The notes beneath the pieces are model-generated. The model was given only the letters and a program-made list of their open reading frames with translations. It was not told the DNA's origin and did not search any database. A DNA stretch of 64,000 nucleotides from Citrifermentans bremense (lineage in GTDB: Bacteria > Desulfobacterota > Desulfuromonadia > Geobacterales > Geobacteraceae): contig NZ_AP023213.1 of assembly GCF_014218275.1 (NCBI RefSeq), positions 1,652,001 to 1,716,000 of the forward strand, given 5' to 3'. The position numbers and the translations under genes were made by a program. Positions 26,906 to 55,547 of this stretch are shown here, one piece after another; positions within the stretch are counted from its first letter, which is position 1; every line of letters starts with the position of its first letter.

Positions 26906-27343
26906 TCAGGCGTCGCCGCCGGCCGGGCCCGTCTTGTCGCGCCTGGTGCTGATGTTGTGGACGTCGAAGAACCGGCCGAACTCGACGTCGGTTTCACCTA
27001 TGTGGTGCGTCACCCAGTTGCACAAAAACCAGAGCAGCTCCACCGAAACCTTCCCGTTACCTTTCAACTCCTTCTTGAACTCGACGACCCTGCCGGTGAA
27101 GTGGGCGTGCTCTTCCCGGTGGGCCTCCAGCTTGGGGTAGCCCGTCTTCTTCATCCACTGCTCTTCACAGCTGAAGTGGCGAGCGGCGTAGTCGATCAAT
27201 TCCTGCAGGAATGCCAGCTCGATCTCTTTGCCTTCCCGGAACTCGTCGTAGGCCCTGTTCAGGGATTGCACCAGGTGCTTGTGTTGCCGGTCGATCTCCT
27301 GTATCCCCACCAAGAGATTCACATTCCATTGAATTATAGGCAT
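26906..27343 (-). CDS. Bacteriohemerythrin
   Basis: A 145-residue hemerythrin-like protein that binds oxygen at a diiron site. The signature starts with WNVNLLVGIQEIDRQHKHLV, giving the first His, and continues with HFSCEEQWM, YPKLEAHREEH and a C-terminal WVTHHIGETD. These supply the family's five His, Glu and Asp ligands. It may buffer or deliver oxygen in a microaerobic lifestyle. The gene stands alone, convergent with the ferritin-like gene. Confidence 0.93.
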   Translation of the reverse strand: MPIIQWNVNLLVGIQEIDRQHKHLVQSLNRAYDEFREGKEIELAFLQELIDYAARHFSCEEQWMKKTGYPKLEAHREEHAHFTGRVVEFKKELKGNGKVSVELLWFLCNWVTHHIGETDVEFGRFFDVHNISTRRDKTGPAGGDA

Positions 27344-27402
27344 CCCGCTCTCCCAACTTCGGCGCCGCCCCCTCCGATAGGGGACGGCGCCTGATTTTGC
27401 TC

Positions 27403-28335
27403 TTACTGCGGCGTCAGCACTATCTCGCCCAGTTCGGTCGCATCACCCTGTGCCACCGATACTGCCTGGGACGAATACAAAGCGAAGCCGTTTGCCGTTA
27501 TGAACGTCTTGTAGCCGACGCTCCCGCTGGCTGGCGGCACGAAGACGGCAAACGGGGCCTGCCATCTACCGCTGGTGTAACTGGAGAAGATGCGCCCTGC
27601 TGCGATCGGGTCGCTGTCGTTCACGGTACCGCGCCTCTTGACGGAGACGGTGGCGCTGGACCACTGCGCGAAGCTGGAACTCACGTTGCCGATGATGGAG
27701 CCGAACTGCGGCAGCTCGCCTGCCATCTGCACCATCCTGATCCCGGTCGGTTTCAGGTTGTAGCCGCCGTTGCCCCGCGGGACTATGGCGGTATTGGGGT
27801 CGAAGTCGATCATGACCGCGTTGATGACACCGGCCTTGACCTCGACGGGGCCCAGCACCTTGAGCCCGGACTGCTGCCCGCTGGGTGTGTCGAGCGGGAT
27901 CGGGTTGCTGCCGTTTAGGTCGCTGCTGAGCGTGAGGTAGTTGACGGGAGGACGGTTGCCGTTCGGGTTCGGCTCCAGAACCAGTCGGATCTGGCTGTAG
28001 CTCCCGGCCGGGAGGACGATTTCGCCCAGGGGTTCCTGGAGAAAGCGCAGGGCCATGACATCTACGACCTTGGGCGTGGCAAACCGCACCAGTACAGGGA
28101 GGTTCGGATCGTTATCGGCTGCGCCTTCCAATCCCCTGGGGACCACCCGTATCTCGCGTATGGCGATCACGACCTTGCCGAAGCTGTCGCTCTGTCTGTC
28201 GGTGATGGCGAGCTTTAAGGTCCCCTTTGTGGCGTCGCTTCCTCCCCCGCTGCAACCCCCAAGGTACGCGAAGGCTGCCAGCAGCAAGCAGATAACTATG
28301 ACAGCCGGCTTAAACGCTGCAGTTTTCCCGCTCAT
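27403..28335 (-). CDS. DUF4382-domain lipoprotein
   Basis: A 310-residue envelope protein with a lipobox LGGC (Cys about 28) followed by SGGGSD. The DUF4382 domain opens with GTLKLAITDRQSDSFGKVVIAIREIRV and continues through GSYSQIRLVLEPN. A second beta-rich part follows with an SSYTSGRWQAPFAVFVPPASGS block, similar to carboxypeptidase-regulatory beta sandwiches. Function is unknown; such proteins are presumed surface or adhesion components. It is second in the unit behind the GEMM riboswitch, 30 bases after the His-rich gene. Confidence 0.8.
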   Translation of the reverse strand: MSGKTAAFKPAVIVICLLLAAFAYLGGCSGGGSDATKGTLKLAITDRQSDSFGKVVIAIREIRVVPRGLEGAADNDPNLPVLVRFATPKVVDVMALRFLQEPLGEIVLPAGSYSQIRLVLEPNPNGNRPPVNYLTLSSDLNGSNPIPLDTPSGQQSGLKVLGPVEVKAGVINAVMIDFDPNTAIVPRGNGGYNLKPTGIRMVQMAGELPQFGSIIGNVSSSFAQWSSATVSVKRRGTVNDSDPIAAGRIFSSYTSGRWQAPFAVFVPPASGSVGYKTFITANGFALYSSQAVSVAQGDATELGEIVLTPQ

Positions 28336-28365
28336 GGGTCATCCTCCTGTCGTTATCGACTTAGC

Positions 28366-28674
28366 TTAGTCGCGTCCGTGCTTATTGCCGTGCCCTTTGC
28401 CGTGCCCTTCTCCTTTGTGATGCCCTTCTCCTTTTTCGTGCCCGAGGTGCCTGCCGCGGTCATGATGGTCTCTCTTTTTCATGTAAATGCGCCTGTGGTC
28501 CTCCACGTAGTAGGGGCGCCCCGCGTCGACGTAGATCCTCACGCCCGGAGGGGCGGGAAGGTAGGCGCCCAGTTGGATGTTCAGGTCCACCCCGCCGGCG
28601 TGGGAGGCCTGCGGCGCCGCGAGGGCGAAGCATGCAGCTGTTGCAAAGGCCAGTGTTGTAAGCGCTTTTTTCAT
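28366..28674 (-). CDS. Small His/Gly/Lys-rich exported protein
   Basis: A 102-residue protein with a clean signal peptide (about residues 1-26, ending ASHA). The mature chain has a short conserved-looking core (GGVDLNIQLGAYLPAPPGVR, then a YVEDHRRIYMKKRDH block). Its tail is dominated by His, Lys and Gly (HKGEGHGKGHGNKHGRD). The tail could bind metal or haem. It is the first gene downstream of the GEMM riboswitch, so its expression should respond to a cyclic dinucleotide. No family is recognised beyond similar short exported Geobacter proteins. Confidence 0.7.
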   Translation of the reverse strand: MKKALTTLAFATAACFALAAPQASHAGGVDLNIQLGAYLPAPPGVRIYVDAGRPYYVEDHRRIYMKKRDHHDRGRHLGHEKGEGHHKGEGHGKGHGNKHGRD

Positions 28675-28741
28675 CTTTTCTCCTCCGTTTCAGGGCACCC
28701 CGTACTATTGCTCCGCTTCCATTTCCCTGGGTTGCGGCAAC

Positions 28742-28855
28742 AAAAAAGCCGGGGCCAAAAATATCGATCGATATTTCGGCGACCCGGCTGTCTCGTGGAG
28801 ACCCTGTAGGCTTTCCGTCCCATCCTCGCGGATGGTTTAGTATTGTCGTTTATCT
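28742..28855 (-). promoter_or_regulatory. GEMM-I riboswitch (cyclic dinucleotide) with intrinsic terminator
   Basis: On the minus strand, starting near 28855, the aptamer reads ACGACAATACTAAACC, then hairpin CCATCC-GCGA-GGATGG with a GNRA tetraloop, GGACGGAAAGCC, the stem GGTCTC-CAC-GAGAC, and AGCCGGGTCGCCGA. These are the conserved GEMM-I elements. The terminator is AGCCGGG (28788-28782) with CCCGGCT (28754-28748) plus six U, sharing the aptamer's 3' strand, so ligand binding should favour read-through. The position matching Vc2 G20 is A, the feature linked to 3',3'-cGAMP selectivity in Geobacter. Confidence 0.88.
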
Positions 28856-28860
28856 GTGCT

Positions 28861-29071
28861 GAATTTTGCAGGAACCATAGCGCAAGGCATGGGGCATGTC
28901 AAGGATGCTTTTAATCTGTTTTTTAGAGTCAATGTCATGCCTGAAAGGGTGAAACAGTAAAAAATCTAAAGTCCTATGCAGATGTGCCGAAGATATACCA
29001 GTGTAAATGGCAAATATGGCATGAAACTGTTTTATTGATTCAATGTTATATCCGTAGCACGAGGGGACAAA
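28861..29071 (+). promoter_or_regulatory. Divergent promoter region between riboswitch unit and 29072 gene
   Basis: AT-rich, with no gene or clear RNA. It must carry the promoter of the riboswitch transcript (minus) and of the gene at 29072 (plus). I could not assign confident hexamers. Confidence 0.35.
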
Positions 29072-29533: not shown

Positions 29534-29941
29534 TCAGGACCCGGTCGCCGAGGCATGGCAGGCGCACTCTCCAGGAAGATTGCTTCTTTTCTCCTGTATC
29601 ATCTCCCACTCCTGCTCCAGCTTTTCCGGTTCCGTGGTCGATTGCCGCAGGAAGTCGAGCAGGCGCTCCTCGGCGTCTCCGGAAAAGCTCACGAACTTGA
29701 TCCCCACCATGGAAAAAAAGCTATGCACGATGCAGGCTGTTATCACTACGGGCCCGGCCTGCGGCTCCAAGGTGACCGATAGCGTGCAGCAGTCGCCGAC
29801 AGGAATCATTATGCACTCATCAGCGCTGATCAGCGCGCCCCTCAAAGAAACGTTTTCCAGCCGGCACTTGTAGTTCATGCCTGAATGTGACAGTTCGCCG
29901 GGCGCTCTGCTTTGTACCCGGTGAAAACGCCGCTGGTTCAT
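29534..29941 (-). CDS. PilZ-domain protein
   Basis: A 135-residue protein from the ATG at 29941, preceded by AGGGGGAT; a longer frame to 30130 lacks support. The N-terminal RRFHRVQSR supplies the RxxxR motif and NVSLRGALI the [DN]xSxxG motif of PilZ domains, which bind cyclic di-GMP. The C-terminal tail (EECACHASATGS-like, Cys-containing) is unusual. It lies 0.7 kb from a GEMM-I riboswitch, so two cyclic-dinucleotide-responsive elements share this insert. The target process is unknown. Confidence 0.82.
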   Translation of the reverse strand: MNQRRFHRVQSRAPGELSHSGMNYKCRLENVSLRGALISADECIMIPVGDCCTLSVTLEPQAGPVVITACIVHSFFSMVGIKFVSFSGDAEERLLDFLRQSTTEPEKLEQEWEMIQEKRSNLPGECACHASATGS

Positions 29942-30113
29942 ATAGCATCCCCCTATGCAGTGTAATGGACAATTGGCAGGTCTCTTATCGTCAGCGACGC
30001 GGCCGGACTTCAGTTTTTTCTCAAACATTACCGTGTGCCAACGCTTTGCGGCCTCAACTTCTTCTGTCTGTGCCTTTGCGGGTAGGCGGGTGCGTCTTTG
30101 GGCAGCTTTTCCA

Positions 30114-30142
30114 TTGACTTCAGGGGGCAACTATTGTATTAA
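30114..30142 (+). promoter_or_regulatory. Sigma-70-type promoter for prs
   Basis: TTGACT at 30114-30119, a 17-base spacer and TATTAA at 30137-30142, about 100 bases upstream of the prs start. The remaining sequence between 29942 and 30242 shows nothing else. Confidence 0.55.
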
Positions 30143-55284: not shown

Positions 55285-55547
55285 TGTAAAGGCAGTGACG
55301 AGGAGTAGTAGCCTTTTCCTTCCCCTTCAGAGAGCCGGTGGTTGGTGCGAACCGGTGAGGAAGCAAGGTGAACTCGCCTTTGAGCCGCCGCAGTGAAACA
55401 CGTGTTTTACTACCATGACGCGTGCTAGCTGGGGCCGTCCACCCGCGTAAAGGGTCAATGAGGTCCGCCAGAGGCGGATGAATGAGGGTGGTACCGCGGA
55501 AGCTTTCTGAAAGCCTTCGCCCCTTGCTGGGGCGGAGGCTTTTTTTA
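55285..55547 (+). promoter_or_regulatory. T-box leader, leucine-specific, upstream of leuA
   Basis: The T-box core GGGTGGTACCGCG is at 55486-55498. Stem I spans about 55290-55385 and carries a candidate CTC (Leu) specifier at 55373-55375 within GTGAACTCGCC. The terminator AAGCCTTCGCCCC/GGGGCGGAGGCTT with seven T occupies 55511-55547. Uncharged tRNA-Leu (GAG) should stabilise the antiterminator and allow leuA expression. Confidence 0.9.

Follow-up and report, generated by a model that had tools for sequence, protein, structure and literature searches.

The window, by which we mean the whole 64-kb stretch of DNA that was analysed, contains on its minus strand an RNA leader with a GEMM-I aptamer followed by three genes. 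The first gene (28366..28674, minus strand) encodes a putatively exported protein of 102 aa with a signal-like N-terminus, a conserved core around PAPPGV and GRPYYVE, and a His/Lys/Gly-rich tail that has 9 His and 6 Lys among the last 37 residues. Neither Pfam nor NCBIfam matched this His-rich protein at E values up to 1, and a sequence search of its own genome returned no convincing paralogue (next best E value 0.21).

The second gene (27403..28335, minus strand) encodes a 310-aa lipoprotein that matches DUF4382 (PF14321, 110 bits against a cut-off of 25) and has a lipobox, LGGC, at residues 25-28 as read by eye; it is the sole DUF4382 match in the genome. Pfam and NCBIfam gave no functional annotation of the first two proteins beyond DUF4382, and a sequence search for solved relatives of the lipoprotein returned a single, unconvincing match (E value 0.4). 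An AlphaFold model built from 13 sequences reached a mean pLDDT of 62.4 and a pTM of 0.52. In a Foldseek search with this model, the best 50 of 1801 matches (E values up to 10) were headed by a streptococcal pilin (E value 7.8e-4, probability 0.33, TM-score 0.14) and included many immunoglobulin-like chains, and the only TM-score above 0.3 among them belonged to the transthyretin-like domain of carboxypeptidase D (5aq0, TMt 0.69, E value 0.035). The C-terminal part of the lipoprotein may thus be weakly transthyretin-like, which we take as a hint from a low-confidence model.

The third gene (26906..27343, minus strand) starts 59 bases past the DUF4382 gene and encodes a bacteriohemerythrin (NF033749, 122 bits). 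A G+C-rich inverted repeat that is not followed by a T-run can be read from the sequence between the two genes. An earlier note on this DNA had named a His/Lys-rich exported protein and a DUF4382 lipoprotein as the gene content; both are present, and its title omitted the bacteriohemerythrin gene (27343-26906), which lies in the same range. Elsewhere in the window, a gene for a PilZ-domain protein (29534-30130, minus strand, 45 bits), a likely c-di-GMP binder, lies upstream of the leader on the same strand, and a T-box leader occupies 55286-55527 of the plus strand (116 bits).

A conserved GEMM-I aptamer precedes the putative operon

We searched the 64-kb window with the Rfam covariance models, and RF01051 (c-di-GMP-I, GEMM-I) matched at 28851-28775 of the minus strand with 43.6 bits against a gathering score of 35 (E value 3.2e-5 for the 64-kb window against 4227 families). 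This is the sole GEMM-I aptamer above the Rfam cut-off within the window. The earlier note had placed the aptamer at 28855 to about 28776 of the minus strand, a reading that the covariance model bears out above its curated cut-off, with P1 starting at 28854. From the RF01051 match and the helix pair counts over the 41 aligned rows described below, the GEMM-Ib aptamer spans 28770..28854 (minus strand), with an extended P1 formed by 28854-28847 and 28778-28770.

Positions are numbered as in the Vc2 scheme, placed on the window with the Rfam alignment; the pilM riboswitch of Geobacter metallireducens and Gmet_0970 are the same RNA. Read in this way, positions 20 and 47, both called A in the earlier note, are indeed A, at 28841 and 28814, and the C predicted to pair with the ligand is 28779 (C92 of Vc2 and C75 of the cGAMP riboswitch). 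The leader, comprising aptamer and terminator, folds at -45.2 kcal/mol compared with -29.4 +/- 3.55 kcal/mol for shuffled sequences (z -4.45), and none of 200 shuffles folded as low.

Above the Rfam cut-off, the genome contains 13 GEMM-I matches, 11 with A20 and 2 with G20. We aligned ten of these with 26 upstream copies from relatives and with five of the 14 scanned loci from named records, giving 41 rows. The canonical copy L001 and the copies with longer leaders, L005 and L006, were left out, as were nine named loci that look like repeats of same-genus loci and eight second copies in relatives. In the aptamer, 99.0% of the 874 cells in P1, P2 and P3 are paired (38 of the 41 rows being distinct), and pairing falls to 36-50% once the partners are slid. 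Both sides have changed in six of the 23 aptamer pairs, a count that none of 500 shuffles equalled; because the rows are related by descent, this result is not a probability. The sole aligned copy with a base other than A at position 20 is L002 of the same genome.

Predicted competition of aptamer and terminator for the same strand

The earlier note had described an intrinsic terminator fused to the aptamer, and both the sequence and the predicted folds agree with it. The terminator (28742..28788, minus strand) consists of a stem (28788-28748), with an outer part GCCGGG..CCCGGC and an inner part that uses the 3' strand of P1, GCCGAAAUAUC, followed by a run of six T (28747-28742). The hairpin was absent from the output of a simple terminator pattern scan, whose only match was a plus-strand site inside P2 (2.4 expected by chance). 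We attribute the omission to bulges in the stem, and the terminator rests on the predicted folds. In these, 28780-28770 pairs with 28765-28754 and C28779 pairs with G28755, so that the terminator takes up both the 3' strand of P1 (28778-28770) and the ligand-pairing C. Aptamer and terminator are thus mutually exclusive in the folding predictions, with the ligand-pairing C sequestered in the terminator.

When the RNA was folded stepwise from 28862, the terminator stem appeared from about transcript position 112-116. Enforcing P1 and P2 gave -18.3 kcal/mol at 93 nt, 4.4 less stable than the free fold at -22.7 kcal/mol, and -20.4 compared with -44.9 kcal/mol at full length. Because the enforced fold is less stable in the ligand-free calculation, P1 probably needs the ligand and tertiary contacts, which the folding program ignores. 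The terminator hairpin folds in all 41 rows (-18.2 to -33.6 kcal/mol, each taken from GCCGGG onward). Its outer stem showed no covariation on these rows, a count that says little because four of the six outer-stem pairs never vary.

For the pilM riboswitch, measurements showed that P1 needs the ligand, and there, too, the terminator sequesters C75 (PMC9262584). The reuse of the P1 3' strand and of C75 in the terminator is common to that ON switch and, by prediction, to the RNA in the window (PMC9262584), and because of this reuse an ON switch is expected here as well. The ON switch proposed in the earlier note thus gains support from competing predicted folds and from published work on close homologues. 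We rejected an OFF-switch reading because the aptamer and the terminator share strands and the folds show no separate antiterminator.

Just upstream of the aptamer lies a sigma-70-like, promoter-like site, TTGACA-17-TATGGT (28874..28902, minus strand, 10/12 match). A promoter scan of the region found one site where 0.7 were expected by shuffling, which is weak alone. An exact TTGACA occurs within 70 nt upstream of the aptamer at six of the 13 GEMM-I loci of the genome, and L008 has TTGACT. With 13 copies in one genome relics are conceivable, and the aptamer could be a decayed or inactive copy downstream of a promoter that governs the operon alone; we consider this very improbable, since both alternative folds are intact by prediction and since the A20 core and the pairs of P1, P2 and P3 are kept in aligned copies from other genera.

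GEMM-I RNAs and candidate cGAMP synthases

GEMM-I RNAs were found in 57 of the 58 genomes of the order that we searched, with 1 to 39 matches each. In the genome that contains the window we counted 25 GGDEF domains (26 matches, as L037 and L038 together make up a single domain). The Hypr serine, a Ser in place of the Asp of GHxxGD, is present in two of these: L028, a REC-GGDEF protein of 458 residues (GHLIGS..GGDEY), and L039, a HAMP-GGDDF protein (GYAKGS..GGDDF); L036 has a Thr at this position. The cGAMP synthases of G. sulfurreducens are GacA and GSU1937 (PMC6456294; PMC8835794). L028 and L039 fit the published descriptions of these two enzymes and are likely candidates for cGAMP production. 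Because the other 23 GGDEF domains do not have the Hypr serine, c-di-GMP is probably present too.

Reported cGAMP targets in Geobacter comprise cytochromes, pilus genes, transpeptidase lipoproteins and hypothetical genes (PMC6456294). In our genome, the gene downstream of L009/L013 encodes an L,D-transpeptidase with a lipoprotein-like start and the gene downstream of L008/L002 encodes a protein with fibronectin type III domains; they resemble the G. sulfurreducens riboswitch targets GSU0181-0183 and GSU1945, respectively. We had considered GSU1945 as the G. sulfurreducens orthologue of the DUF4382 gene and dropped it, as it encodes a fibronectin type III or repeat protein. A further A20 GEMM-I copy, L003 (C1:3388845-3388921 of the genome), precedes a gene for an exported protein with the segment GVDVNIHLG, similar to GVDLNIQLG in the core of the His-rich protein; the sequence search with the His-rich protein did not report it.

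Pairing of GEMM-I and DUF4382 in ten genera

To define the distribution of this arrangement, we searched the 58 genomes, our own included, for DUF4382 and obtained 43 matches, one of which is that of the window. Among the 42 matches in relatives, 27 have a GEMM-I RNA upstream, and all 27 of these RNAs have A20. The pairing spans ten genera in three families. In the set of 29 loci fetched first, the RNA is upstream at 26, and lax scanning of the three others (L056, L079 and L085) gave none either; it is upstream at one of the remaining 13, lower-scoring matches. The 15 matches that have no upstream GEMM-I RNA include L131, with nearly no upstream sequence, and L132, below the Pfam cut-off. From 13 copies in 4.46 Mb, simple arithmetic gives a chance expectation of about 0.1% per gene for a GEMM-I RNA on the same strand within 0.7 kb upstream, a figure that is only a guide because the loci in relatives share descent. 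Among named records (Geomonas species, Citrifermentans bremense and metagenome bins, overlapping the set of 42), 16 loci were found, and the aptamer is upstream at all 14 that were scanned. Among named relatives, C. bremense R1 is the closest, at 85% identity.

The other two genes have a narrower distribution. The order riboswitch, His-rich gene, DUF4382 gene and hemerythrin gene is present in 14 of the 17 same-genus loci fetched, and a pattern search found neither the His-rich motif nor the hemerythrin start in any of the 12 other-genus loci of the first 29. Since these two genes were seen in the window's own genus only, the pairing with DUF4382 is the more widespread trait, and they look as if one genus had acquired them later.

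The switch could accordingly operate as we propose and yet have the DUF4382 lipoprotein as its only physiological target, with the His-rich and hemerythrin genes as passengers. The His-rich motif is missing between riboswitch and DUF4382 at 12 of the 26 first-fetched riboswitch loci (ten outside the genus, and L064 and L067 inside it), and the G+C-rich hairpin between the DUF4382 and hemerythrin genes, with no T-run behind it, also points this way; against it, the four-part order kept in most same-genus loci suggests a working unit in that genus. This reading is compatible with our main explanation and may be correct, although we would stop short of calling it probable.

Eight same-genus relatives carry a second A20 GEMM-I RNA past the hemerythrin gene, some 1.9-2.0 kb downstream of the first, near position 2800-2960 in gene orientation (L065, L069, L071, L072, L075, L076, L077 and L080). 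At named loci with this second copy, it is followed by a gene whose product has a segment like KIEDCIEVVKAIK; in our genome, a similar protein follows the GEMM-I copy L010. One metagenome bin has a c-di-GMP-I-GGC riboswitch (RF03167, 61.6 bits) behind its DUF4382 gene (L050, 2611-2689).

Predicted ligand selectivity

In the crystallised 3',3'-cGAMP riboswitch, the ligand is contacted by G8, A11, A12, U13, A14, C15, A41, A42, G74, C75 and C76 (PMC7288161), with A9 and G40 as further contacts (PMC6274999). We placed P1, J1/2 and P2 on the window according to the published descriptions, and all 13 listed contact nucleotides are identical in the window, where the numbering is transferred from these descriptions and not from the crystallised sequence. 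The lower P2 pairs of the window's aptamer are C-G and U.G, and a U.G wobble in lower P2 is also described for the pilM riboswitch (PMC9262584). A20, the lower P2 wobble and the listed contact bases are therefore common to the window and to Gmet_0970 (PMC9262584, PMC7288161, PMC6274999). Between A42 and G74, the window's aptamer has one nucleotide more than Gmet_0970 and the crystallised cGAMP riboswitch.

The assignment to GEMM-Ib (3',3'-cGAMP-type) made in the earlier note is supported by this comparison, by folding and by the published close homologues; the ligand itself is predicted. A switch that binds c-di-GMP only is disfavoured by the A at position 20 and by the C-G and U.G pairs of lower P2; for contrast, the genome holds a canonical G20 copy, L001.

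Substituting G for A20 in Gmet_0970 shifts selectivity from cGAMP to c-di-GMP (PMC6456294). The GEMM-Ib riboswitch before omcST in G. sulfurreducens was reported to be sensitive to both cGAMP and c-di-GMP (PMC6456294), so A20 alone is no guarantee and the selectivity of the window's RNA is a prediction. With this published example, and with many of the 23 GGDEF domains that are missing the Hypr serine probably making c-di-GMP, the RNA could be an ON switch that is promiscuous for both ligands, and the operon would then track the total level of cyclic dinucleotides. We regard this as unlikely, given that the 13 listed contacts and the lower P2 wobble agree with cGAMP-selective homologues and that A20 is present in every DUF4382-associated upstream copy found in relatives. 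Because G20 exists on the same scaffold, in L002, A20 in those 27 copies looks kept rather than drifting.

Proposed mechanism

We therefore think it highly probable that the leader belongs to the GEMM-Ib (3',3'-cGAMP) subclass and acts as a transcriptional ON switch, controlling the His-rich/DUF4382 operon through competition with a terminator. RNA polymerase would start just upstream of 28854 and transcribe the aptamer first. cGAMP, probably supplied by the two Hypr-type GGDEF enzymes, would bridge A20 (28841), which would contact its adenine, and C28779, which would pair with its guanine, with A47 stacked between. The bound ligand would stabilise P1 and thereby deny 28780-28770 to the terminator, so that transcription would read into the His-rich protein gene, the DUF4382 lipoprotein gene and possibly the hemerythrin gene. 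In the ligand-free RNA, 28780-28770 would pair with 28765-28754 and transcription would stop at the T-run 28747-28742.

Comparison with known riboswitches and possible functions

The window's RNA adds another member to a riboswitch class whose mechanism and ligand are already known. It has the same three-helix fold, A47 and ligand-pairing C as the Vc2 c-di-GMP-I riboswitch of Vibrio cholerae (RF01051). Vc2 has G20 and GC pairs below P2, whereas the window has A20, the C-G and U.G pairs at this site, and a terminator. Vc2 is described as a translational switch (PMC9262584).

GSUR3008, which precedes pgcA (GSU1761) in G. sulfurreducens and is cGAMP-induced in a GacA-dependent manner, is a GEMM-Ib RNA with a terminator (PMC6456294), as is, by prediction, the window's RNA. 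GSUR3008 controls an extracellular cytochrome, whereas none of the window's three genes matched a cytochrome family in Pfam or NCBIfam. The Gmet_0970 switch controls pilM, whereas that of the window precedes the genes for the exported His-rich protein and the DUF4382 lipoprotein.

Text searches of the open literature returned no link between DUF4382 and a riboswitch, which the supplements of the 2015 founding riboswitch papers could list, and no match for DUF4382 together with Geobacter; DUF4382 itself turned up in a single paper, on archaeal glycoproteins. Its pairing with a cGAMP-type riboswitch across ten genera makes the DUF4382 gene a good candidate for a shared component of the cGAMP response other than a cytochrome.

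Because cGAMP has a published role in the growth of G. sulfurreducens on Fe(III) particles (PMC6456294), a surface role of the encoded proteins is a reasonable guess, no more, and they might serve in surface attachment or electron transfer. We tentatively suggest, with more doubt than conviction, that the DUF4382 lipoprotein of about 300 residues is a core and previously unrecognised cGAMP effector in Geobacter relatives that serves brief contact with mineral particles, and that a His-rich, metal-binding secreted protein and a hemerythrin joined the unit in one genus.

Tandem GEMM-I copies elsewhere in the genome

Upstream of the fibronectin type III protein gene, L090 (1152-1413; C1:2699017-2699278 of the genome) contains two GEMM-I RNAs in tandem. 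They share a scaffold, the first has A20 and the second G20, and behind each lie a hairpin that can fold and a T-run. L091 and L092, the two closest orthologous loci, have the A20-then-G20 tandem as well. All other tandems in which both key bases were read are A20/A20 (L095, L096, L100 and the genome's own L013/L009); L093 has a single G20 copy, and further GEMM-I copies were found in L094, L097, L099, L104 and L106. If the bases of the A20-then-G20 tandem act as in Gmet_0970, the fibronectin type III gene would need both cGAMP and c-di-GMP.
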